Shown here: piece by piece, positions 112 through 54,403 of the stretch | Layout of the letters: each line of letters starts with the position of its first letter | Numbering within the stretch: the first letter of the stretch is position 1 | DNA from: Terriglobia bacterium | GTDB taxonomy: Bacteria; Acidobacteriota; Terriglobia; Terriglobales; Acidobacteriaceae | Length of the DNA stretch: 64,000 nt | Assembly: GCA_020073185.1 (NCBI GenBank) | Contig: JAIQFT010000007.1 | Coordinates: 1 to 64,000 of the forward strand | Direction of reading: 5' to 3' | Position numbers and translations under genes: made by a program | The notes under the pieces: model-generated | Seen by the model: only the letters and a program-made list of their open reading frames with translations | Told to the model about the DNA's origin: nothing | Databases searched by the model: none

Positions 112-1095
112 TCAGCTACTTACACCACGGGCTGCTAGACGCTCCTTACCTCGCCCATACTCCGCGATCTTCTCGCCGGTTAACGTGTCGTTAATTACGA
201 AGACGGTCGTTGTCGATGAGGAAGCTGAGTCCATGTTGAGACCATACTCAACCGCAATGGTGCCATGCGAGACTTTCGCTGAAATCAGATTACCGTGCTC
301 GGGTGCACGAAGCAAAACCCTTCGAGCATTCCCGCTCGGATCTATTACGTAGAGGAGGCCTGTCGGGCTATGCCGCAAGAGATACACGTTGCCGTCGTCT
401 CCACTCTGGAGCTGTGCTGTCGCAAGTGCTCCTAGAAAGCCGCGGGCAGCTTCATATAGCTTCTTATCGGCCAGGTGTTGATTCGCGAGGAAACGCGTAT
501 CACCCTCCAGCGCCACGCGCTTGAGAAACCGTCCTCGCGAATCAAAAACGGCTGCAAACGGCACAAGGTCCTGCCGATCGAATCCTGAGATCAGAACATC
601 ACCTGTATGGAACGCAGCGATCTGTCGAGCGCGGGCGTTCTCCAAACCTTCAAAAGTCAGCTTCCATGCAGACTTGTACTGGCCGTCTTTGTCAAATATC
701 GCCACGTAGGTCTCAACAGGCGAGGTCTTCTTTTCTTGCCGTTCGAGCAACAACGCGGCTCCACTTCCATAGGGTGCAAAGTCAACCATGGATGCACCCG
801 GGACATCTGTGGCGGACGACACCACGAACTCAGATGTATTCCTGCCGCTCACGCCGATGGCCGTTACGGATCGGGCCGGCGAACGCCGAATGAATCTGAC
901 GAACATGGTAGTACCATCGGGACTGCACTTGATTGGCTGCGCAATGGCAAAGCCTGAGCTGGACTGCAGCTTCTCAATAACGCGCCGGTCTGTAATAGTG
1001 AGACTCTGGCGCGTATCTACGCCGTCGATTCCTAAACCCAGGATGCCCAAGAGGAGCATTCCCGAGAATACGGCTTTTGTCGCCTTGCTCACCAT
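112..1095 (-). CDS. hypothetical secreted or membrane-anchored protein, possible beta-propeller
   Basis: I do not recognise the family. The 327-residue product starts with a short basic stretch and a hydrophobic segment (about residues 8-24), so it is probably exported or membrane-anchored. The rest is rich in beta-strand-like segments of the form 'VFDSRGRFLKRV' and 'YVIDPSGNARRV', spaced about 40-50 residues apart. This resembles NHL- or 6-bladed-propeller-type proteins common in Acidobacteria. The ATG has a GGAAGG-like sequence about 11 bases upstream. It lies 25 bases downstream of the small Cys-rich gene on the same strand, and the two are likely co-transcribed. The function is unknown; the fold assignment is inference. 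Confidence 0.6.
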   Translation of the reverse strand: MVSKATKAVFSGMLLLGILGLGIDGVDTRQSLTITDRRVIEKLQSSSGFAIAQPIKCSPDGTTMFVRFIRRSPARSVTAIGVSGRNTSEFVVSSATDVPGASMVDFAPYGSGAALLLERQEKKTSPVETYVAIFDKDGQYKSAWKLTFEGLENARARQIAAFHTGDVLISGFDRQDLVPFAAVFDSRGRFLKRVALEGDTRFLANQHLADKKLYEAARGFLGALATAQLQSGDDGNVYLLRHSPTGLLYVIDPSGNARRVLLRAPEHGNLISAKVSHGTIAVEYGLNMDSASSSTTTVFVINDTLTGEKIAEYGRGKERLAARGVSS

Positions 1096-1120
1096 CCCGC
1101 CGCTGCCTTCCTGAATGCAG

Positions 1121-1465
1121 TTAATGAATTAGGGCAATCGGCGACCGAGCCTTTTCTCTTTTGCGCTCTCGCGCGTTTACCAGTGCTCTTGCCATCGTTA
1201 TTCTTGACAATCTCGCACCAGCCACGTCGTCCGTGGTGTCGTATTGAATCTCCCCGCAGCAATACCATACAACTGGCGTGTGGACGCGACATGCATCTTG
1301 CATGCCGTTCTGCGGAAAAATCCTCATCGTTCGTGTGCAGCCCGAAGCAGTCTGACAACTTGCCAGTGTCGGGTTCACATTCATGCATCGTCCGTCTTCG
1401 CAGATCTGCGCGACGGCGAATGTGGAGAGAAGAATCCACAAAGTCACAAGAATTAATCTCTGCAT
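1121..1465 (-). CDS. small cysteine-rich secreted protein
   Basis: The 114-residue product begins with a clear signal peptide (hydrophobic residues 4-17, likely cleavage after Ala-Val-Ala at about 19). The mature part has seven cysteines in its first 55 residues, including CEDGRC and a CC pair, followed by a basic C-terminal tail. The Cys pattern suggests a disulfide-stabilised extracytoplasmic protein. The start is well supported: GGGAGGAAG lies seven bases before the ATG. The next gene on the strand begins 25 bases after this stop. No known family was recognised, and the basic tail may be disordered. Confidence 0.55.
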   Translation of the reverse strand: MQRLILVTLWILLSTFAVAQICEDGRCMNVNPTLASCQTASGCTRTMRIFPQNGMQDACRVHTPVVWYCCGEIQYDTTDDVAGARLSRITMARALVNARERKREKARSPIALIH

Positions 1466-1725
1466 TTACTTCTTCCTCCCACGAAGGGCTTTTGTGTCGC
1501 GGAAAAATAGCATCGACGGCAAGAAAAGATCCACTTCGACTTCGCTTGTTCCGGTTTCAGGACAGACTTTAGGGATCTGTCATTTATGCAACACTTTGCA
1601 ACTTCGCAAGACCGGGTACGAGGAGGAAAGTTGATCCGAAACTGGAACAAGCTGCGTGTTACTGGCGATAAATCGCCTCTCACCAGTAACCCGCTGCGAA
1701 GCCGGCCACTGCACGCCCTTACCAG

Positions 1726-1800
1726 GCAGCGCCTAGCTAGCCCTTCGAGCCAAATGAAAATAGCGCCGCGCGTGGTGCACGTCGTGCGCGATCTGTTTTT
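1726..1800 (-). pseudogene. decayed fragment of a ribF 3' end
   Basis: Read on the minus strand this stretch encodes KQIAHDVHHARRYFHLA, nearly the same as the last residues of the intact RibF encoded at 3369-4310 (EQIAHDVHHARRYFHLA). Bases 1748-1780 are identical to 3381-3413, and similarity extends on both sides, including the sequence just after the stop. The His and Asp codons differ synonymously (CAC/GAC against CAT/GAT), which fits an old diverged gene copy rather than a very recent duplication. The rest of 1466-2052 holds no convincing gene, only this fragment and a period-7 array at 1810-1837. Confidence 0.6.
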
Positions 1801-1809
1801 ACAAGGGGT

Positions 1810-1837
1810 GTCGGTTATCGGTTGCCGGTGCTCGGTT
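1810..1837. repeat. degenerate heptamer array
   Basis: Four consecutive 7-base units read GTCGGTT, ATCGGTT, GCCGGTG and CTCGGTT. This is one member of the period-7 family found across the window. It lies in the otherwise empty 1466-2052 interval, next to the ribF remnant. Confidence 0.6.
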
Positions 1838-2052
1838 CTCATGCTCGGGCCGTTCGTGCGAGGTCACGGAAAAACACTGGGAATTGGTGAACTGGTTGTG
1901 GGATACACGTAGCGGGGGCCGCGGGCGTTCAACAGGTAAGCGGAGAGCATAGTTCGCTTCCTATTTTGATTGCCAAAACCCAAGCAGCGCCTGTACGATA
2001 CGTCACCACTCCGGGCCGTGAATCTCAAACATTTCCATGAAAGAGAACGTCA

Positions 2053-2517
2053 ATGAAAGCCAGAACAATACTGTTCGCCTTGGTCTTTTGCCTGGCCGGG
2101 GCCGTCGCATGTTTTGCCGCCGATTCGAACTTGGGTGCCTGGAAGTTGAACGAAGCGAAGTCAAAGATTCCCGCTGGGGCGAGCAAGAATACCAGCGTTG
2201 TCTATACCGCGGCGGGCGACAACTACAAGTGCGTCGTTGACGGCGTAGATGGCGCCGGAAAGCCCACCCACAACGAATGGACCGGCAAGTTTGATGGCAA
2301 GGATTATCCCATCGTCGGCGACCCGATCAGCGATACCCGCGCCATCCAGGCAGTCGATGGCCATCATTACAAACTGACGAATAAGAAGGGCGGGAAGCCG
2401 ACCGTCACCGGCACGATCGTTGTCTCTCCCGACGGCAAAACTCGCACTCTCACTACGAATGTAACGGATGCCGGCGGCAAGAAGGTTACCGCCACATTTG
2501 CGTACGACAAGAAATAA
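2053..2517 (+). CDS. small secreted lipocalin-like hypothetical protein
   Basis: The 154-residue product has a signal peptide (MKARTILFALVFCLAGAVAC..., cleavage near residue 22). It is followed by a short all-beta protein beginning 'LGAWKLNEAKSKIP', a motif I associate with small secreted proteins of Acidobacteria and Verrucomicrobia. The C-terminal half has strands 'TVTGTIVVSPDGKTRTLTT' and 'KKVTATFAYDKK'. A ligand-binding barrel is plausible, but no ligand or catalytic residues can be assigned. The ATG is preceded by AGAGAA. It stands alone between the ribF remnant and the methyltransferase gene. Confidence 0.7.
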   Translation: MKARTILFALVFCLAGAVACFAADSNLGAWKLNEAKSKIPAGASKNTSVVYTAAGDNYKCVVDGVDGAGKPTHNEWTGKFDGKDYPIVGDPISDTRAIQAVDGHHYKLTNKKGGKPTVTGTIVVSPDGKTRTLTTNVTDAGGKKVTATFAYDKK

Positions 2518-2672
2518 TCTTCCACTGCCATTCACCGAGACTATGCCTTTCCGTTCCGGGCGGGACGGTAAGGCATGGTTCAGCTTGCTTGCGCTCCGAG
2601 AAAGTCAGGACGAAGCAACGTCCCGCAATCTTCAATCGCGAGGGATCGGGCATTTAGGGAAAGGATTCACCA

Positions 2673-3269
2673 CTGGCCACCGACTACGCGCAGCTCACCG
2701 AGAACCTTCTCCGCTTCTACGACTTCACCAATAAGGTCGTGCTTTTCGTCGGGGCGGGTGGGAGGCAACTGCTTGCCGCCTCCGCCGGAACCAAGAAGCT
2801 GATCGCGATTGATCAGGATGTGGAGGCCCTGCGGGAACTTGCGGCGAACGTTGCCGCAAAGGGCATGCAGGATTCCGTGGAGGTTGTTGGCGGCAAGTTC
2901 GAGGATGTGACACTGTCGGGCGATGTGGTGTACTTCGAATTTTGCCTGCACGAGATGGCCGATCCCCAGAAGGCGCTGACCCACGCCAAGAGTCTGGCAC
3001 GCGACATCGTGGTATTCGACCATTCGCCTGGCTCGGAGTGGATCTTCTACGGTGCGGAAGAGGACAAGGTCTGCCGCAGCGCGCAAGCCATGGAGCGCTT
3101 CGGATTGCGGCGCCGCGAAAGGTTTCACACGGAACAGCGGTTCGAGAACTACGCCGAACTCCTCGCCAAGGTAGGTGCGCAAGGGCCTACCGCGATCCGG
3201 CGCACGCAGCGCTTTGCAGGCGCCACGATGATCGTCATTCCCATGAGCTACGAACTCAACCAGTTGTAG
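2673..3269 (+). CDS. class I SAM-dependent methyltransferase-like protein
   Basis: The product has a Rossmann methyltransferase layout: motif I 'VLFVGAGG', an acidic motif II 'LIAIDQD', a post-motif 'VEVVGGKFEDVTLSGDVVYFEFCLHEM', and a C-terminal strand pair. The substrate is unknown. The first ATG/GTG/TTG in frame is GTG 2739, but that would begin inside the strand leading into motif I. Reading upstream, the frame stays open to a stop at 2655 and encodes a sensible helix (ATDYAQLTENLLRFYDFTNK). A CTG at 2673 is preceded by GGGAAAGG at about 8 bases, so I take CTG 2673 as the likely start and GTG 2739 as the alternative. At about 198 residues it is short for the family. Confidence 0.6.
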   Translation: MATDYAQLTENLLRFYDFTNKVVLFVGAGGRQLLAASAGTKKLIAIDQDVEALRELAANVAAKGMQDSVEVVGGKFEDVTLSGDVVYFEFCLHEMADPQKALTHAKSLARDIVVFDHSPGSEWIFYGAEEDKVCRSAQAMERFGLRRRERFHTEQRFENYAELLAKVGAQGPTAIRRTQRFAGATMIVIPMSYELNQL

Positions 3270-8382: not shown

Positions 8383-8480
8383 ACACCCAGCCCCGAAGGG
8401 GCGGTAGAAACTAGTCCGGCACGTCAGTGCCGGGAATCGGGGCCATAACTTTCTCCGAGTCCCGTAGGGGCGGCACGCAA
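8383..8480. repeat. three-hairpin REP-like element
   Basis: Three short hairpins follow one another: GCCCC/GGGGC (8389-8402), a perfect 7-bp stem CCGGCAC/GTGCCGG with loop GTCA (8416-8433), and CCC-GTA-GGG-type at about 8460. The same order with diverged sequence recurs at 10210-10290. It occupies most of the 334-base gap before the peptidase gene. This resembles repetitive extragenic palindromes known from Acidobacteria. Confidence 0.65.
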
Positions 8481-8524: not shown

Positions 8525-8552
8525 CGATTGTCGATTGTCGATTGTCGATTGT
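8525..8552. repeat. perfect heptamer array CGATTGT x4
   Basis: Four exact tandem copies of CGATTGT abut the likely TTG start codon (8552) of the HEXXH peptidase gene. They replace whatever Shine-Dalgarno sequence would be expected there. Confidence 0.75.
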
Positions 8553-9967
8553 TGTTGCGCGCGATCGTACTCGTGGTGCTTCTCGCGTCCTTGGCGACGG
8601 CACAGTCGCCTCCCCAGGCGCAGGCGCCCAAGCCCGAGGTGGCGCCGTCCGCGCCGACACAGCCGCCGCAAACCCCGGCGCGGGCCACCACCGAGCATCG
8701 CATCACGCCCGAGGAAGCCAGGGAACTGCTGGGCGCGGTGGACGAGGTGCTCCGCTTCGACAGCGACGACAGCGGGCTCAAGATCAAGCACGAGGTCAAG
8801 CGCCAACTCGCCAGCCGCGACCAGGTGCAGAAGTACATCGAGACCCGGCTGCAAGAGGACGAAGACACGCAGCGGCTGCGGCGCGCCGAGGTCGTGCTGA
8901 AGAAACTGGGCCTGCTGCCGCGCGCATTCGATTTGCAGACATTCCTGGTCGAGCTGATGCGCGAGCAGGTCGCCGGCTACTACGACAGCAAGACCAAGAC
9001 TGTGTACCTGCTGGATTGGCTGCTACCGGCGTCGCAGCTGCCGGTGCTGGCGCACGAGCTGACGCACGCGCTGCAGGACCAGAATTACGGGCTGGAAAAG
9101 TGGATGGGGAAGGGGACGTCGGAGAAGACGCCGACGGAGGAAGCGTACGGCGACGAGGAAATCGCGGCGCGGCACGCCATTGTGGAAGGGCAGGCGATGG
9201 CGGTCATGATCGATTACCTGCTGGCGCCCACGGGGGGATCGGTGGTTTCGATGCCGCGGGTCACGGAGGCAATCCAACAGGGCATGATGGAGAGCGCCGA
9301 CTCGCCGGTGTTCAACCGCGCCCCCATGTTCCTCAAGCGCGTTCTGTTGTTCCCTTATCGTTACGGGCTTGATTTCGAGCGCGAATTGTTGACCAAGGGC
9401 GGCAAGGAGAAAGCGTTCGCCGGCGTGTTCAAGTTCCCGCCGCAAAACACGCGCCAGGTGATGGAGCCGGCGACCTACCTGGCGGGCGAAAAACTTCCCG
9501 ATTTGCCGGTGCCCGATGTCGCCAAGCTCCTGGGAAAAGATTGGGAGAAGTACGACGTGGGCTCCATCGGCGAGTTCGACGTCGCGGTGATGGCGGAAAT
9601 TTATTCCGGCGCCGACGTGGCGAAAAAGATTTATCCGCAATGGCGCGGCGGCTGGTATTACTCCGCCAAGCGCAAGAACGGTGGGGAACTGGCGCTGGTG
9701 ATGGTGACGAAGTGGGCAGACGCGGCGGCGGCGGACGAGTTTCGCAACCTGTACGCGACAGCGGTTCCGAAGCGTTACACGGTGGAAGCGGGCGCGCCCG
9801 GCGGCGGAGTTGAGAGGATCAGTGCAATCCCTAGTGTCGAGTTGACGCGTTGGAAGACCGCCGCCGGCCCGGTGGAACTCGTCGCCGCAGCCGACACGGT
9901 GATCGCCATCGAGAGCGTGCCGGCGGAGATGGTGGACAAAGTCCGGCTGGCGGTGCTGGGCAAATGA
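8552..9967 (+). CDS. secreted HEXXH zinc metallopeptidase-like protein
   Basis: About 471 residues. A signal peptide (LLRAIVLVVLLASLATAQ) is followed by a Pro/Ala-rich linker. A helical region then leads to the zinc motif HELTH in 'LAHELTHALQDQNYG', with a likely third ligand in 'HAIVEGQAMAVMIDYL'. The fold should be an extracytoplasmic gluzincin; substrates are unknown. The frame is open from GTG 8498, but the intervening residues are translation of a tandem CGATTGT repeat, so I take the TTG at 8552, just before the signal peptide, as start. Translation initiation is unusual here because the repeat occupies the ribosome-binding region. Confidence 0.75.
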   Translation: MLRAIVLVVLLASLATAQSPPQAQAPKPEVAPSAPTQPPQTPARATTEHRITPEEARELLGAVDEVLRFDSDDSGLKIKHEVKRQLASRDQVQKYIETRLQEDEDTQRLRRAEVVLKKLGLLPRAFDLQTFLVELMREQVAGYYDSKTKTVYLLDWLLPASQLPVLAHELTHALQDQNYGLEKWMGKGTSEKTPTEEAYGDEEIAARHAIVEGQAMAVMIDYLLAPTGGSVVSMPRVTEAIQQGMMESADSPVFNRAPMFLKRVLLFPYRYGLDFERELLTKGGKEKAFAGVFKFPPQNTRQVMEPATYLAGEKLPDLPVPDVAKLLGKDWEKYDVGSIGEFDVAVMAEIYSGADVAKKIYPQWRGGWYYSAKRKNGGELALVMVTKWADAAAADEFRNLYATAVPKRYTVEAGAPGGGVERISAIPSVELTRWKTAAGPVELVAAADTVIAIESVPAEMVDKVRLAVLGK

Positions 9968-11254
9968 TGAACGCAATATCGCGTTCGATGTTGGATTGGT
10001 GACATACGTGTCTCGTAAAGGCTCAGTTTGAAGTCTGCCTATGATCCAGGCACAATCGCGGTAGCGACAATGCGCGACCTGATTGGCGCGGGCGCCCTCG
10101 CCCGCGGCTTCCAGTTTCCGTCCGGGCTTGTTGGAAGCGCGGGCCTTTAGGTGTCTACGTGAAAACTGGTCTGGCATGATCGACGGTGGTATGTAACCGC
10201 GACATCGCAGCCCCAGCGGGGCGATTGAGAATAGCCCGCCACTTCAGTGGCGGGGCATAGTGGGAAGGATCTCTCAGTGCCGTAGGCACGATTGAAGTTC
10301 CCACGCACACACCTTACCGGCTGCTGAAAACTCGATTCTGTGTCAGGGTACGACTTCACAGGCTTCTGACCAACGCACTTGTGTCAGGGTGCGACCTCAC
10401 AGGTTGCCGAAAAATGCTCTCTACGGCTTGTTTTGAGGGGGCGCGGCTCGGTAGACCACCGGCTTCAGCCGGTGGCGCGAAGCGCCGCGCCGAACAAGTC
10501 CTTTATTTTTTTGTCATTCCGAGCGGGCTCGGTAGGTCACGGCTTTGCAGGCTGCTGGCAAACGCGCTTGTGTCAGGGTACGACTTCACAGGCTGCTGAA
10601 ATATGCCCTTGCCCAAGAACTCTTGTGGCGCGGGCGCCCTCGCCCGCGGCTTCTGTGTCAGGCTCGACTTCTCAGGCCGCTGAAATACGCGTTTGTGTCA
10701 GGGTACGACTTCAGTCGTACCGCAAACCGCATCCTTAGTTTTGTCATTCCGAGTCGCGCCGACTGAGCGGAGCGAGGAAGGCGCGGCGAGGAACCTGTTT
10801 TTCCACTCTTTCACCAGCCCTTCACCCGGGGCCGAGGCGCGAAGCGCCGAAGCCCGCGAGGAATCTACGGCTCTTCGCTTGACTCGCCGTGCTAAAATGC
10901 ATTCTGGATGCTGAAGAAACAGCGTCCTCGCTGAGCCGCCGGAGCTGTCGCTTCTGCGGCTCAAGGTGCTTCATTGGCCTTTTATTATCAATATTTTACG
11001 TGTAACTCCCTATTCCTCAAAGATCTGGCGGGAATTTCTCCGCAAAATGTTGATTCTAAAAGATCGACCCCGGGGGGAGGGGGGTACCCATTTTCCAGCA
11101 ACATGCCCTCCACGGCTTGTTTCGGAAGGGCGCGCGAGCCTGTTGTGAAAGGGCACGACTTCAGTCGTGCCGTAATCGTACCGAATGAACATCGGCTTTA
11201 GCCGCTGAGGGTCGAAATCGCTGTCAGCAGGACTGCAGCCTCTTAGGAGATTCT
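9968..11254. repeat. repeat island without genes
   Basis: This 1.29-kb interval has no credible coding sequence. It contains a second three-hairpin REP-like element (10210-10290). It also holds five copies of a roughly 25-base unit beginning GTGTCAGGGTACGACTTCA (near 10340, 10381, 10570, 10655, 10695) and two copies of GGCGCGGGCGCCCTCGCCCG (about 10085 and 10626). Two stretches start TGTCATTCCGAG (about 10513 and 10743), the widespread environmental palindrome. A CGACTTCAGTCGTGCCG hairpin lies near 11155. Low-complexity G runs occur at 11070-11085. Confidence 0.7.
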
Positions 11255-49213: not shown

Positions 49214-49255
49214 CGACGATCGGCCATCGACCATCGACCGTCGGCCATCGACTGT
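49214..49255. repeat. heptamer array, six units
   Basis: CGACGAT, CGGCCAT, CGACCAT, CGACCGT, CGGCCAT, CGACTGT follow each other exactly in period 7. The array ends 23 bases before the first glycosyltransferase-like gene, in the divergent promoter region shared with the Sel1 gene. Confidence 0.8.
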
Positions 49256-49278: not shown

Positions 49279-50916
49279 ATGCTGCTCACCAAGGCCCCGG
49301 AACAAGCCCAAGCTGAGGCGGATCTTGCCGGCGCGCAGCCGCGACCGCCGATCACGCGCGAGCGGATTCCATTTGTCCTTTGCCAACTGCTGGTGCTGGG
49401 ATGGGTGGTGCGCGACCTCGCTGTGCACGCCGAGGCCATCCGACGCCACGTCGGGCTTCCGTTCCAGGTGGACTATGAAGAGGGCAACATCCTCAATGCG
49501 CTGGTGCGGATCACACATGGCCTCACGCCGTATCCCGATCCGCACGCCATTCCCAACATCCTGAACCCGTATGGGCCGGTGGCGTATTACCTGTTGGCCG
49601 TGCCGGTGAAGTTGTTCGGCGTTTCGTTTCTCTGGCCGCGGCTGGTGATCGTGGCTTGCGTGGCGGCGATCTGCTGCTTTGTCGGCCTGACCGTAGCGCG
49701 GCTGACAGGTTCGGCGCTCACCGGACTGGCCTTTGGGGCGATGTATGGAACACTGCCGGTGGTGGAGTCCTGGAGCGCGGTGCTGCGCGTGGATTTCCTT
49801 GCGCTGGCACTGAGTACGACGGGCGTGTACCTCTTTATCCGGGGCTTAGCCACAGAGGACACAGAGGGCAAAGGGGCATCCGTCGTCGATGGCGTCACCA
49901 AATCCGACAAAATCGACAATCGACAATCGACAATCGGAAATGCTTTTTCTCCCTCCGTGTCCTCTGTGGCTAAGCCTTGGTTTTCATCGGCGGCGCTGTT
50001 CGTGGCCGCGCTGTTTGTGAAGTACACCTACGTTGCCGCGCCCGCGGCTTGCTTCCTCTACCTGCTGGCGCAAAGGAGATGGAAGCCGGCGGCTTGGTTC
50101 GCCGGTTTCGCCGCCGCTCTTGCGGCCGCGCTGCTGCTGCTGTCGGTGGCAGCCACGCGAGGCACGATCCTCACACATCTGTTTCGCACCCATGCCGACC
50201 TGTTCTCTACCGACGTTTACCTTGTGCGCATGACCGGCATCATCGCCATGTGCCGGGTGCTGGCCGTGCTGGCGGCGGCGTGCCTGATCCCCGAACTTCT
50301 GCAGCGCAGCCTCTCCGTACCCGCGCTCTGGCTGCTGATCGCCAGCGGCACGGCGGTCACGGCGGGCAAGGTGGGCTCCAATTGGAATCATTTTCTGGAG
50401 TGGCCGGCGGCGCTGTGTCTGTGCGCGGGAATTGGTTGGACGAAGCTCACGCGAATCCGGCCACGCGTGCTCGCAACCGTGGCGGGGCTGGCCGCGACGG
50501 CGTGGCTGTGCATCTTCCTGTGGCGCGAGCGCTCGCTGCCCTTCAATCCCTACGCTACCGTACAGGACTGCTCGCAAGCGTACGCCTTCGTCAAGCAATA
50601 TCCCGGGGACCAGGTACTTTCCGAAAACGTTGGCGCGCTGGTGCTGGCGGGCAAGACGGTCTGGGTTTCGAATCCGTTCGTGTACACCCAATTGGTGATG
50701 CGCGGCGGATGGCCCGACGCAGGGCTGGAACGCATGGTGCGCGCTCGCCGGTTTGATCTGATTGTTGCGCAGTGGAACTACCCGGCCTATCCCAGCTTCA
50801 TGAGAAACGGGGCGGAGCGCTTCTCCTCCCGTGCGGTGAAGGCAATCGCCGAGAATTACCGGGTGGTGCAGATGTACGGCTGCACCGATGCGCGCGTTAT
50901 GTTTGAGAGGAAGTAA
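49279..50916 (+). CDS. multi-TM glycosyltransferase-like protein, paralog 1
   Basis: A 545-residue inner-membrane protein with about ten TM segments. The first periplasmic loop 'VDYEEGNILNALVRITHGLTPYPDPHAIPNILNPYGPVAYYLLAVPVKLFG' is shared almost unchanged with the next gene. This GT39/PMT-like loop carries the acidic residues expected for a polyprenol-sugar transferase. Residues 189-233 are the translation of a 135-base foldback element (49843-49977) inserted in-frame between two TM helices. The soluble C-terminus (from about 420) includes 'LSENVGALVLAGKTVWVSNPFVYTQLV'. Donor and acceptor unknown. Confidence 0.78.
   Translation: MLLTKAPEQAQAEADLAGAQPRPPITRERIPFVLCQLLVLGWVVRDLAVHAEAIRRHVGLPFQVDYEEGNILNALVRITHGLTPYPDPHAIPNILNPYGPVAYYLLAVPVKLFGVSFLWPRLVIVACVAAICCFVGLTVARLTGSALTGLAFGAMYGTLPVVESWSAVLRVDFLALALSTTGVYLFIRGLATEDTEGKGASVVDGVTKSDKIDNRQSTIGNAFSPSVSSVAKPWFSSAALFVAALFVKYTYVAAPAACFLYLLAQRRWKPAAWFAGFAAALAAALLLLSVAATRGTILTHLFRTHADLFSTDVYLVRMTGIIAMCRVLAVLAAACLIPELLQRSLSVPALWLLIASGTAVTAGKVGSNWNHFLEWPAALCLCAGIGWTKLTRIRPRVLATVAGLAATAWLCIFLWRERSLPFNPYATVQDCSQAYAFVKQYPGDQVLSENVGALVLAGKTVWVSNPFVYTQLVMRGGWPDAGLERMVRARRFDLIVAQWNYPAYPSFMRNGAERFSSRAVKAIAENYRVVQMYGCTDARVMFERK
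49843..49977. repeat. 135-bp foldback element inside glycosyltransferase paralog 1
   Basis: Perfect 20-base inverted ends (GGCTTAGCCACAGAGGACAC and its complement at 49958-49977) enclose a core holding an ATCGACA-type heptamer array (49912-49939). The arms have a 9-base period (CACAGAGGA, CACAGAGGG / CCTCCGTGT, CCTCTGTGG). Its length is 45 codons and the frame is kept. Confidence 0.85.
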
Positions 50917-50954
50917 TCGGCAATCAGCGATTAGCATTAGCCTTGGGCCGATCA

Positions 50955-52556
50955 ATGGCGAAGCCTGCAGCAACACGTGCAATGGAGAACGGCGAGAGTG
51001 CGCGGCTGGCCGAGAGAGGCGCGCGCTGGTCTGATCGTTGGGTGATCGGATGCGAGCTGGCGCTGGCGGCATTTGTGGCCTGGCGGTTGATCGGCGCGGC
51101 GATCGCCATGCGTGCCAGTGTCCTGACTCCTTTCCAGTTCGATTACGGCGAAGGCAACGTGCTGGCCACGCTGGTGCGCATCGCCCACGGTCTTACCCCG
51201 TATCCCGATCCGCGCGCGTTCCCCAACGCCATCGATCCCTACGGCCCCGTGGGCTACTACCTGCTTGCGGTCCCGGTAAAACTGTTCGGCGTCTCGCTGC
51301 TGGCGCCGCGGCTGCTAGTGATCGCTGCCGTGGTCGCGATCTGCATTTTGCTGGCGCTGGCCATCGCAACACGCACGTGCTCCCTCGGGGCTGGGGTGAT
51401 CTTCGGCACCGCCTACGCTGCGCTCCCTTTGGTGGTGGGACTGAGCGCGGTGTTGCGCGTGGACCTGGTCGGGTTGGCGTTGAGCGTCGGCGGCCTGTGC
51501 GTCTTCTCCCAGAAAATGGTCGCGGAGAACGCAGCGGACGCGGAGGAAGAAAGAGAGAAGAAATCCTCTGTGTCCTCTGCGTCAAATTCCCGCCTGGTCT
51601 TATCGGCAGTGCTCTTCGTCGCTGCCATCTTCTGCAAGCACAGCCTGCTGGCCGCGCCCGCGGCGTGCACGCTGTACCTGGTGGCGCGGCGCCGCTGGCG
51701 CGAGGCGGCAAGCTTTGCCGGCTTCGGTGCTGTCCTGGGTGTGGCCGCGTTTGCGGTCGCCGAATGGCTCACGCGCGGATTCTTCGCCGAACACCTGTTC
51801 CTCACTCATCCCGACCCGTTTTCGTGGAACGGATACGCGCTGCGAATCACCCGGCTGGCGATCGGAGCCGCGCCACTGCTCGCGCTCGCCTCGGTGCGCA
51901 TTATCTGGGAGTTACGGCAAAAGCAATTGTCGCTCGCCGGCTGGTGGTTTCTGCTGGCGACAGTGACGGCGATCACCGCCGGCAAGCAGGGCTCCGGCTG
52001 GAACCATTTCCTGGAGTGGGCGGCGGCATTGTGTTTGTGCGCCGGCCTTGGCTGGGAGGTTGTGCGGCGCGCGCGGTCGGCGGCGGTCGTGTTCACCGCA
52101 TGGCTGGCGGTGATGTGGGTCTGGCCGGCCCAGTCCATGTTTGACTGGTCTAACGGCTTGCAGGAGTGTCCGCAGGCCTACGCATACGTCCGCAGCCATC
52201 GCGGCGACCGTGCTCTGTCAGAAAACGTGAGCGCGCTGCTGCTAGGCGGAAAGACCGTATGGGTGCTGGACCCGTTCGTGTACAGCCAGATTGTGATGCA
52301 CGGCACATGGCCGGATGAGGTCATGGAGCCGCGCCTGCGCTCGCGCTGGTTTGACATGGTGGTCACGCGCCGCGACTACACGCGATCATCCGATGCTCTG
52401 CAACGCGGCGTCGAGCGCTTCTCCGCCGGCATGTTGCAGGGGCTGAAGGCGAATTATCGCGTCGCGCGCACCTTTCAGTGCACCGACGCCAACGTGGTTT
52501 TTGAGCCGCTTCCATTACAATCAAAGCTGGCGCAGGTGCCGGCAGCCGGCCACTAA
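50955..52556 (+). CDS. multi-TM glycosyltransferase-like protein, paralog 2
   Basis: About 533 residues, a tandem paralog of the preceding gene. It shares 'FDYGEGNVLATLVRIAHGLTPYPDP', 'DPYGPVGYYLLAVPVKLFGVSLLAPRL', 'GSGWNHFLEWAAALCLCAGLGW' and the C-terminal 'LSENVSALLLGGKTVWVLDPFVYSQIVM'. At residues about 189-210 ('AENAADAEEEREKKSSVSSAS') it carries a degenerate 9-base-period foldback at the same place as the element in paralog 1. ATG 50955 is preferred to TTG 50943. The gap to paralog 1 is 38 bases, with a heptamer array at 50916-50936. Confidence 0.78.
   Translation: MAKPAATRAMENGESARLAERGARWSDRWVIGCELALAAFVAWRLIGAAIAMRASVLTPFQFDYGEGNVLATLVRIAHGLTPYPDPRAFPNAIDPYGPVGYYLLAVPVKLFGVSLLAPRLLVIAAVVAICILLALAIATRTCSLGAGVIFGTAYAALPLVVGLSAVLRVDLVGLALSVGGLCVFSQKMVAENAADAEEEREKKSSVSSASNSRLVLSAVLFVAAIFCKHSLLAAPAACTLYLVARRRWREAASFAGFGAVLGVAAFAVAEWLTRGFFAEHLFLTHPDPFSWNGYALRITRLAIGAAPLLALASVRIIWELRQKQLSLAGWWFLLATVTAITAGKQGSGWNHFLEWAAALCLCAGLGWEVVRRARSAAVVFTAWLAVMWVWPAQSMFDWSNGLQECPQAYAYVRSHRGDRALSENVSALLLGGKTVWVLDPFVYSQIVMHGTWPDEVMEPRLRSRWFDMVVTRRDYTRSSDALQRGVERFSAGMLQGLKANYRVARTFQCTDANVVFEPLPLQSKLAQVPAAGH
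51521..51583. repeat. foldback element inside glycosyltransferase paralog 2
   Basis: A left arm with units GCGGAGAAC, GCAGCGGAC, GCGGAGGAA faces a right arm with TCCTCTGTG, TCCTCTGCG. This is the 9-base-period element type, translated in frame at the loop corresponding to the 135-bp element of paralog 1. Confidence 0.7.
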
Positions 52557-52574: not shown

Positions 52575-53276
52575 ATGCAGGTCCGCGTACTTTTTTTCGG
52601 AATGCTGAAGGAAGTCGCCGGCAAGGCGAGCGATGACGTGTCGCTGCCCGATGGCGCCACCATCGGCAACCTGCTCTCGCACTACGCGCAAGACGCGAAG
52701 CTCAAAGGCCTGCTGGGATCGATTGCCGTCGCGCTCAACCTGGAGTATGCCGCGCCCACCGCCGTGCTCCGCGATGGTGACGAGGTCGGACTTCTGCCCC
52801 CGGTGAGCGGCGGCACCGACGCGAAACCCGTGACCCAAGGCCGGGTTCAACTTACCCGGGAGCGCATCGAGACCGCCGCGCTCGCCGAGCGCATGAAGCG
52901 CCCCGAGGATGGCGCGGCGGTGGTGTTCGAGGGCATCGTGCGCCGCAGTAGCCGTGGCCGCCGCACGCTGTATCTCGATTACGAAGCCTACGAGCCGATG
53001 GCGCGCAAGCAGCTCGAGGACCTGGCGGCGCGGGCGCTGGCACAGTTCAAGGTGCGCGACCTCGCCATCGTGCACCGCCTGGGACGCTTGCAGATCGGCG
53101 AAACCAGCGTGGCAATCGTAGTCAGCTCGGCGCACCGCGCGGCAGGCTTCGGCGCCTGCCGTTGGCTGATCGACACGCTGAAGAAAACGGTACCGATCTG
53201 GAAGAAGGAATATTTCGAAGACGGCGCGGTCTGGGCCGACGGCGAGCCCTTCCCGCCGGAGATCCGAAGCGCTTAG
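52575..53276 (+). CDS. fused MoaD-MoaE molybdopterin synthase
   Basis: A 233-residue single chain. Residues 1-80 are MoaD ('VRVLFFGMLKEVAGK ... DEVGLLPPVSGG') ending in the di-Gly that must become a thiocarboxylate. Residues about 88-230 are MoaE ('GAAVVFEGIVRRSSRGRRTLYLDYEAYEPMARKQL', 'VAIVVSSAHRAAGFGACRWLIDTLKKTVPIWKKEYFEDGAVW') with the catalytic Lys region intact. The reaction converts cPMP to molybdopterin. The di-Gly at 79-80 is internal, so cleavage after Gly80 seems required, as reported for the similar mycobacterial MoaX. No other mo genes are nearby. Confidence 0.88.
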   Translation: MQVRVLFFGMLKEVAGKASDDVSLPDGATIGNLLSHYAQDAKLKGLLGSIAVALNLEYAAPTAVLRDGDEVGLLPPVSGGTDAKPVTQGRVQLTRERIETAALAERMKRPEDGAAVVFEGIVRRSSRGRRTLYLDYEAYEPMARKQLEDLAARALAQFKVRDLAIVHRLGRLQIGETSVAIVVSSAHRAAGFGACRWLIDTLKKTVPIWKKEYFEDGAVWADGEPFPPEIRSA

Positions 53277-53299
53277 CCGCAGAGGACACCGAGGAAAGC
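53277..53299. repeat. 9-base-period half element
   Basis: Units CGCAGAGGA and CACCGAGGA directly after the moaDE stop match the left arm of the 9-base-period foldback family. No right arm is visible before the VWA gene. Confidence 0.4.
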
Positions 53300-53311
53300 A
53301 GAACAAAAATC

Positions 53312-54292
53312 GTGCCGACCCCGTGCCTCCCCATCTTACCGATCTGCACCACTACGACGTTTCGTCGTCTCGCGGCCGTTGTACTTCTGCTGGCCGTCGC
53401 GCTGCCGGCGCCCTCCGCCATGCCCACCGAGGGTCCGCAAAAAGACGAGCAAGAGCCCGCCATCAGCGTTGACGTCAAGCTGGTCAACGTGTTCGCCACC
53501 GTGACCGACGCCAACGGCGCGCCCGCCCGTACCCTGAACAAGGATAATTTCGCGCTAATGGAAGATGGCGTTCCACAAACCATCTCCGTCTTCAGCCGCG
53601 AATCGCAACTTCCACTCTCCATCGTCATGGCCATCGATGCCAGCCTGAGCACGAAGAAAGACCTGAAGCTGGAGTTGACCTCGGCGCGCCGTTTCGCCCA
53701 CGAAATCCTGCGTCCGCAGGACTCGCTCGCTCTCTACCAGTTCAGCGAAATCGTCGAAGAGCTGGTGCCGTTTACCGCCGACCTCAAGCGCATTGATGCC
53801 GGCATCGACCGCGTCCACGTGGGCTCCGCCACCGCCATGTACGACGCCATCTACCTTGGCGCCGACGCCCTCTACAAGCGGCAAGGGCGCAAGATCATGG
53901 TGATCATTACCGATGGCGGCGACACCATGAGCAACACGTCCTACCAGGAGGCACTGCGGGCGGCACAGCAGGCCGAAGCCACCGTGTACTCGGTCATCGT
54001 GGTGCCCATCGAGGCCAGCGCCGGGCGTGACCTTGGCGGTGAGCACGCCCTGATCCAACTCTCCCGCGATACCGGGGGCAAGTATTTCTACGCCGACACG
54101 CTGCCCCGACTCGACCAAGCCTTCCGCCAGATCAGCGAAGAACTCCGCACGCAGTACCTGCTGGCGTATTACCCAGTGCGGCGCATCGCTGACTCCGACT
54201 TCCGCAAAGTCCAAGTCGAGCTGAAAGGCCCCGGCACCGAGGGTCTGAAGGCGCGCCACCGCAGCGGCTACTACACGTCGAAATTCAAGTAG
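53312..54292 (+). CDS. secreted VWA-domain protein (VWFA-related type)
   Basis: About 326 residues. A hydrophobic leader (RRLAAVVLLLAVALPAPSA) precedes 'ISVDVKLVNVFATVTDANGAPARTLNKDNFALMEDGVPQTISVF', the segment typical of VWFA-related proteins abundant in Acidobacteria. The von Willebrand A domain has a MIDAS-like 'MAIDASLSTKKDL' (DxSxS changed to DASLS), a Thr/Asp segment 'GSATAMYDAIYLGADAL' and 'IITDGGDT'. It ends with a beta domain. It probably mediates extracytoplasmic protein contacts. The start is unsure: GTG 53312 lacks a good Shine-Dalgarno. Confidence 0.82.
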   Translation: MPTPCLPILPICTTTTFRRLAAVVLLLAVALPAPSAMPTEGPQKDEQEPAISVDVKLVNVFATVTDANGAPARTLNKDNFALMEDGVPQTISVFSRESQLPLSIVMAIDASLSTKKDLKLELTSARRFAHEILRPQDSLALYQFSEIVEELVPFTADLKRIDAGIDRVHVGSATAMYDAIYLGADALYKRQGRKIMVIITDGGDTMSNTSYQEALRAAQQAEATVYSVIVVPIEASAGRDLGGEHALIQLSRDTGGKYFYADTLPRLDQAFRQISEELRTQYLLAYYPVRRIADSDFRKVQVELKGPGTEGLKARHRSGYYTSKFK

Positions 54293-54403
54293 TCGATGGT
54301 CGATGGCCGACGGTCGATGGCCACAGCAGATTGCTTGCTGATCCCGCATCGAAAGCTTATCCCTGGCCGTCGACTGCCGACTGCCGACTGCCGACCGCCG
54401 ACC
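54292..54403. repeat. two heptamer arrays
   Basis: 54292-54319 carries GTCGATG, GTCGATG, GCCGACG, GTCGATG, beginning in the stop codon of the VWA gene. 54369-54403 carries GTCGACT, GCCGACT, GCCGACT, GCCGACC, GCCGACC. The second lies 20 bases before the hfq-like gene. Confidence 0.8.

Follow-up and report, generated by a model that had tools for sequence, protein, structure and literature searches.

A palindromic repeat, probably captured once, in frame within two tandem membrane-protein genes of a Terriglobia bacterium

Introduction

Palindromic repeats in frame within protein genes are described from Rickettsia, where elements of about 150 bp lie in frame in unrelated genes and supply extra residues (Ogata et al. 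2000, 2002, as covered in PMC10969869). Coding palindromes were titled a 'unique but recurrent feature' of Rickettsia (a title cited in PMC10969869 and PMC3733652), and a 2024 review regards the same mechanism as conceivable in other prokaryotes (PMC10969869). A second group comprises the intragenic GTAG and CGTC REPs, which are extragenic palindromes found in several phyla and in some cases inside conserved ORFs; in the account given in PMC3733652, a Y1/RAYT transposase gene flanked by the repeat is reported for the GTAG REPs and not for the CGTC REPs. In Nematomorpha mitochondria, perfect inverted repeats occur inside translated genes, and both arms encode conserved protein regions (PMC6649704).

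The repeat described here is like the Rickettsia elements in lying in frame inside conserved ORFs whose homologs are free of the insert (the tandem genes P1 and P2 described below, QueA and RNase R), and its copies occur outside genes as well, as in coding palindromes of that kind. Unlike those elements, as PMC10969869 presents them, it belongs to another phylum and has arms of nine-base units that are open in all six frames; the likeness, which a preliminary description of this DNA had correctly drawn as an analogy, is one of kind. With the GTAG and CGTC REPs of PMC3733652 it shares an extragenic distribution over several phyla with some copies within conserved ORFs, but its arms are long and its loop varies in length. 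The coding palindromes of Nematomorpha, as described in PMC6649704, are likewise inverted repeats in translated genes, whereas here the arms are those of a dispersed repeat and the loop is free of constraint. As far as these papers describe it, the phenomenon is known from the Rickettsia elements and the intragenic REPs, and the present family differs in its stop-free nine-base units, in lacking the GTAG/CGTC tag and in having no clear Y1-transposase neighbour.

Results and Discussion

The element in P1 and P2

The window, i.e. the whole 64-kb stretch of DNA analysed, contains two tandem paralogs with 48% identity. The features discussed are as follows.

49279..50916, plus strand: P1, membrane-protein gene, a 545-aa ORF with a weak PMT_2 glycosyltransferase match
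50943..52556, plus strand: P2, tandem paralog of P1; the listed start is TTG, with ATG at 50982 as an alternative
49843..49976, no strand: palindromic repeat element inside P1, 134 nt, with inverted ends
49843..49862, plus strand: left arm, 20 nt, exact reverse complement of the right arm
49957..49976, minus strand: right arm, 20 nt, exact reverse complement of the left arm
About 49912..49937, plus strand: seven-base-period core within the P1 element, in part common to the congener G002
About 51516..51586, no strand: degraded relative in P2 at the homologous position and in the same frame, ends set by eye
53277..53294, plus strand: additional arm, immediately 3' of the stop of ORF 52575-53276

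The match of P1 to PF13231 has an E value of 0.00048 and falls short of the curated cut-off. The perfect 20-base inverted ends reported in the preliminary description are present, but the element measures 134 nt and not 135. It begins at codon 189, as had been proposed, and the P2 relative begins at the homologous codon, 9 nt past the same conserved Phe codon. The relative is shorter and degraded, and its arms are built from the same nine-base units, also as claimed; the inner portions of the two elements do not align. The loop residues read ATEDTEG...SVSSVA in P1 and ENAADAEEE...SVSSAS in P2, in a common frame. Hydrophobic segments flank the loop on both sides in P1, P2 and the homologs of the congeners G002 and G003, in agreement with the placement between equivalent transmembrane helices. 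AlphaFold was run on P1 with P2 as the sole partner sequence and gave a pLDDT of 35; the result was set aside.

Folded as RNA, the loop DNA has z values of -10.4 in P1, -4.6 in P2, -4.1 in G002 and -2.8 in G003 (200 dinucleotide shuffles). A scan of the window against Rfam at the gathering score gave four matches, none over the element. The seven-base-period repeat (TCGACNN) occurs in the window at 49214-49252, 49912-49937, 8530-8555 and 54292-54317, one of these sites lying in the P1 element, and has 101 matches in the genome against 50 with the reversed pattern. Neither this core nor the additional arm at 53277-53294 figures in the preliminary description.

A dispersed, mainly extragenic repeat family

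The arms consist of nine-base units, ACAGAGGAC, which are free of stops in all six frames. The window has four arms at up to three mismatches, against a mean of 0.02 in 100 shuffles. In the genome, the arm CCACAGAGGACACAGAGG has 66 sites at up to three mismatches, including lone three-mismatch sites left unfetched (C5:99133, C28:2040 and C65:10365), compared with three for the reversed pattern, and the sites frequently form inverted pairs. At one mismatch or less the arm was found in 47 of 120 genomes, the genome of the window (G000) being counted, and the control pattern in none of the 120. The two-arm pattern was found in 56 stretches of a named genome collection, which may omit records close to G000. 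According to the record titles, these stretches come from Acidobacteria/Terriglobia, Gemmatimonadetes, gamma- and betaproteobacteria, Bacteroides, another member of the Bacteroidia, a deltaproteobacterium and a Spartobacterium. L069 (Terriglobia bacterium SRVP_22), which is among them, shares 97.6% identity over 2627 nt with a G000 region in L005, and the congener G001 gives the same figures.

An ORF reaching 30 residues past both ends spans 16 of the 56 intact copies, compared with 84% of stretches drawn at random from the same loci; intact copies are thus mainly extragenic. The preliminary description had proposed a search for such copies between genes. Occupied and empty sites were compared across congeners at three loci. 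One element, upstream of an aspartokinase-like gene (L041), occupies a common position in G000, G001 and G002, where G003 has other sequence. The L005 copy occurs in G000 and in one of the two G001 regions that match, and is absent from G002 and G003, in an alignment too poor for defining its ends. At the third locus (L044, 1416-1520), an SSV-frame arm supplies the N terminus of a PIG-L protein in G000, G001 and G002 and is absent from G003.

Among 20 element-bearing loci, Rfam gave a single match at the gathering score, to 6S RNA, and none over the element. At L123 (1210-1400, minus strand, and 1487-1658) a copy of the nine-base element adjoins a 6S RNA gene. A search of the open-licence PMC literature, by sequence string and by concept, returned no paper on this repeat.

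A probable single insertion before the duplication

We regard the following account, taken as a whole, as probable. A copy of the extragenic palindromic repeat would have inserted in frame into a membrane-protein gene, in a loop between hydrophobic segments, in an ancestor of the present genus and after its split from the sampled outgroups. A tandem gene duplication would have followed, both copies retaining the insert. Ribosomes would read through the insert and produce a hydrophilic loop (TEDTE...SVSS), tolerated by the protein and drifting almost neutrally while its frame is maintained. The insert would then have worn down in P2 and in the congener G003, while the arms of P1 are perfect, presumably through template switching between them.

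The stretch separating two conserved motifs measures 50 residues in P1, 53 in G002, 54 in G003 and 32 in P2, compared with 16 in the outgroup homolog of G021 and nine each in those of G029, G031 and G090. In G002 the arms are still recognisable and the seven-base core is kept; G003 has only remnants of the insert. For 12 weaker P1 homologs, eight ORFs were recovered and four were not; three of the eight could not be aligned at the loop, and the other five (G051, G055, G075, G088 and G104) have no long loop at the aligned position. Equally long, unrelated loops in distant orthologs, named in the preliminary description as the sign of ordinary loop sequence, were thus found in neither the four outgroups nor the five weak homologs. 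The outgroups without the insert and the occurrence of the family mainly outside long ORFs support the proposal that an extragenic palindrome has entered the gene.

In a tree built after removal of the loop, P2 is sister to P1, G002 and G003; the support is 100/100 for the branch below the P1 clade and 99.2/100 for the branch to the outgroups, and 99.9/100 and 98.9/98, respectively, without the last 45 columns. Within the clade, P1 groups with G003 rather than G002 (94.3/92; 84.8/80 without the last 45 columns). The position of P2 makes one insertion before the duplication the simplest history. The boundaries point the same way: the left boundary is identical (9 nt) in P1, G002, G003 and P2. 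The right boundary, counted from where the conserved LF codons end, lies at 30 nt in P1 and G002 and at 33 nt in G003 and P2, so that the 3-nt change fits the grouping of P1 with G003 poorly.

The preliminary description had left two options, an element older than the duplication and a repeated target. The second would mean two independent insertions, either because a stop-free hairpin is rarely tolerated elsewhere or because the site attracts the element, and we consider it rather unlikely. Repeated hits on one loop may occur, as RNase R illustrates. In G000 and G001 a TED-frame arm lies in an RNase R loop in or beside the CSD2 domain, and G002 and G003 are without the arm. Loci from 20 of the 60 matching genomes were retrieved and 19 of the 20 loops were scored, G031 being missed; 15-16 of 18 positions match the nine-base repeat in G000, G001, G007 and G009, and 9-12 of 18 in the remainder. 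The arms thus span three genera, with nearer relatives lacking them. Separate insertions are also favoured by the interiors of the two elements, which cannot be aligned, and by the right arm of P2, which is better preserved than the right arm of G003, the closer relative of P1. Against them stand the same starting nucleotide and frame in P1, G002, G003 and P2, the right junction (33 nt, AATTC) common to P2 and G003, and a tree that requires one insertion only. The tree and the shared boundaries therefore favour the first option, an element that predates the duplication.

G002 has one gene where G000 has two (L047, 5119-6792, minus strand); its body resembles P1 and its C terminus P2. We take it to lie at the syntenic place, with Lon and MoaD as its neighbours, and recombination between the tandem copies is its likely origin. 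A P1 match was looked for in G001 and none was found. A homemade gene caller served as a guide only; it placed one call opposite a MoaD/MoaE-like ORF.

Selection on the loop and maintenance of the arms

The flanks are under purifying selection in the P1 clade, to judge from Nei-Gojobori dN/dS values of 0.10, 0.20 and 0.13 for the 5' flank and 0.23, 0.30 and 0.33 for the 3' flank; the loop gives 1.36, 0.94 and 1.40 over 33-55 loosely aligned codons. In comparisons that include P2, the values are 0.22-0.48 for the flanks and 0.63-1.25 for the loop, the latter from few loosely aligned codons. The 3' part is thus selected as protein, the frame is maintained across a loop of changing length, and the loop itself is nearly free to vary. 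Selection and frame retention thus point to translation of the insert, which is probably unconstrained filler.

Between G000 and G002, 6 of the 44 arm sites have changed, compared with 0.44-0.52 of synonymous sites (P <=1.6e-5, for stretches picked after looking), and the chance of perfect 20/20 pairing after such divergence is about 1e-5 or less. The pairing in P1 takes in an outermost GGC of the left arm that is probably a host codon, since it is also found in G003, and at the right junction P1 has AAGCC where G002, G003 and P2 have AAT. The P1 arms are too perfect for their age, suggesting template switching between them; most likely they stayed or became perfect by such quasipalindrome correction. 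In yeast genes, template switching between inverted arms homogenises the arms (PMC8604942). The two cases are alike in having matched arms inside coding DNA; the yeast case is documented there by strain phylogeny, whereas ours is inferred. Among the 56 named elements, the arms co-vary at position 14 (table 30/4/7/15, Fisher P 2e-5) and not significantly at position 10 (P 0.06), and the first base outside the arms is paired in 56 of 56, against 0.59 expected; these P values are optimistic, as one genome contributes several of the copies.

A hairpin kept for a function, e.g. in the stability or translation of the P1 mRNA or in protein binding, would also account for arms and a seven-base core that have changed less than synonymous sites between G000 and G002, and for the strong folding of the P1 loop (z -10.4). 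We consider it improbable: the hairpin has decayed in G003 (z -2.8) and in P2, and the arms of many elements co-vary wherever they are located, which arm correction explains without selection. An ordinary loop with a chance inverted repeat can be dismissed for practical purposes, since the loop does evolve in spacer-like fashion but the arm family has 66 sites against three for the control, the window has four arms against 0.02 expected, and the outgroup loops are short.

Captures in other genes

Further copies lie within coding sequence. In a Type ISP restriction enzyme, an SSV-frame arm occupies residues 496-505, past residues 233-467, the better of the two stretches covered by its Pfam match. 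A Gemmatimonadetes QueA (L094) carries a complete element, in the TED...SSV frames, inside its Pfam domain; its alignment with a solved QueA is interrupted at residues 136-186, which face 10 residues of the solved chain. In a Bacteroidia ORF that encodes an O-antigen-ligase domain (L082), an element in the TED...PLC frames lies outside the domain. The left arms of these captures, a small hand-picked set, are all in the TED frame.

Some neighbouring observations were made by the way. Next to the captured arm of the Type ISP enzyme (L008, ORF 1054-3015, minus strand), a second palindrome-like stretch, GGCACGACTAAAGTCGTGCC, was noticed by eye, and two repeat types may share one loop there. LCVLCG-frame arms seem to form the hydrophobic core of a putative signal peptide in a DUF1028 protein (L035, 1462-1514) and in a protein that matches Peptidase_M1 weakly (L007, around 1501-1530).

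A broader reading is offered tentatively. This multi-phylum palindrome family, with its nine-base unit open in all six frames, might be a recurrent donor of protein segments, its TED and SSV frames turning into soluble loops within conserved enzymes and membrane proteins and its LCVLCG frame into the core of signal peptides, with template switching keeping the arms of coding hairpins matched. If so, the built-in lack of stops would be the reason why the repeat survives inside genes.

Mobility and REP-like sequences

The tags of the REPs are not characteristic of these elements, GTAG lying no more than 12 nt from an end in 3 of 56 and CGTC in 2 of 56. At the 12 Y1_Tnp loci of G000, no clear arm was found within about 1.5 kb, the one three-mismatch match being at the edge of L064; mobilisation by the Y1 transposases of the genome is therefore unsupported. 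In a check for target-site duplications, direct repeats of at least 6 nt near both ends were found in 3 of the 56 elements, compared with a mean of 2.0 with shuffled partners.

A separate repeat, Acido-Lenti-1 (RF01687), an sRNA family of Rfam, was found in the window at 8389-8434 and 10209-10254, both on the minus strand. It is a high-copy repeat of the genome, with at least 97 matches, at least 72 of them over the cut-off, among the 150 of 1319 candidates that were scored. It adjoins Y1_Tnp genes (L054, L055, L056, L057, L059/L061 and L065; L059 and L061 overlap) at 7 of the 12 loci at E up to 1 and at 6 of the 12 at the gathering score, and at L055 and L056 it lies on both sides of the Y1_Tnp gene in opposite orientation. 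At the gathering score it is found in none of the 20 element-bearing loci; L134 and L140, outside that set, hold some copies. Acido-Lenti-1 looks like a REP of RAYT-like transposases.

Significance

For annotation, the family carries a warning that TEDTE, SSVSS or LCVLCG stretches in predicted proteins can be repeat DNA. P1, P2 and their relatives provide an example from outside Rickettsia whose history can be read, consisting of one probable capture, one duplication and four descendants in differing states of decay, with purifying selection in the flanks and nearly neutral change within the loop. The P1/P2 system thereby allows the decay or re-perfection of a captured palindrome to be measured in a translated gene.
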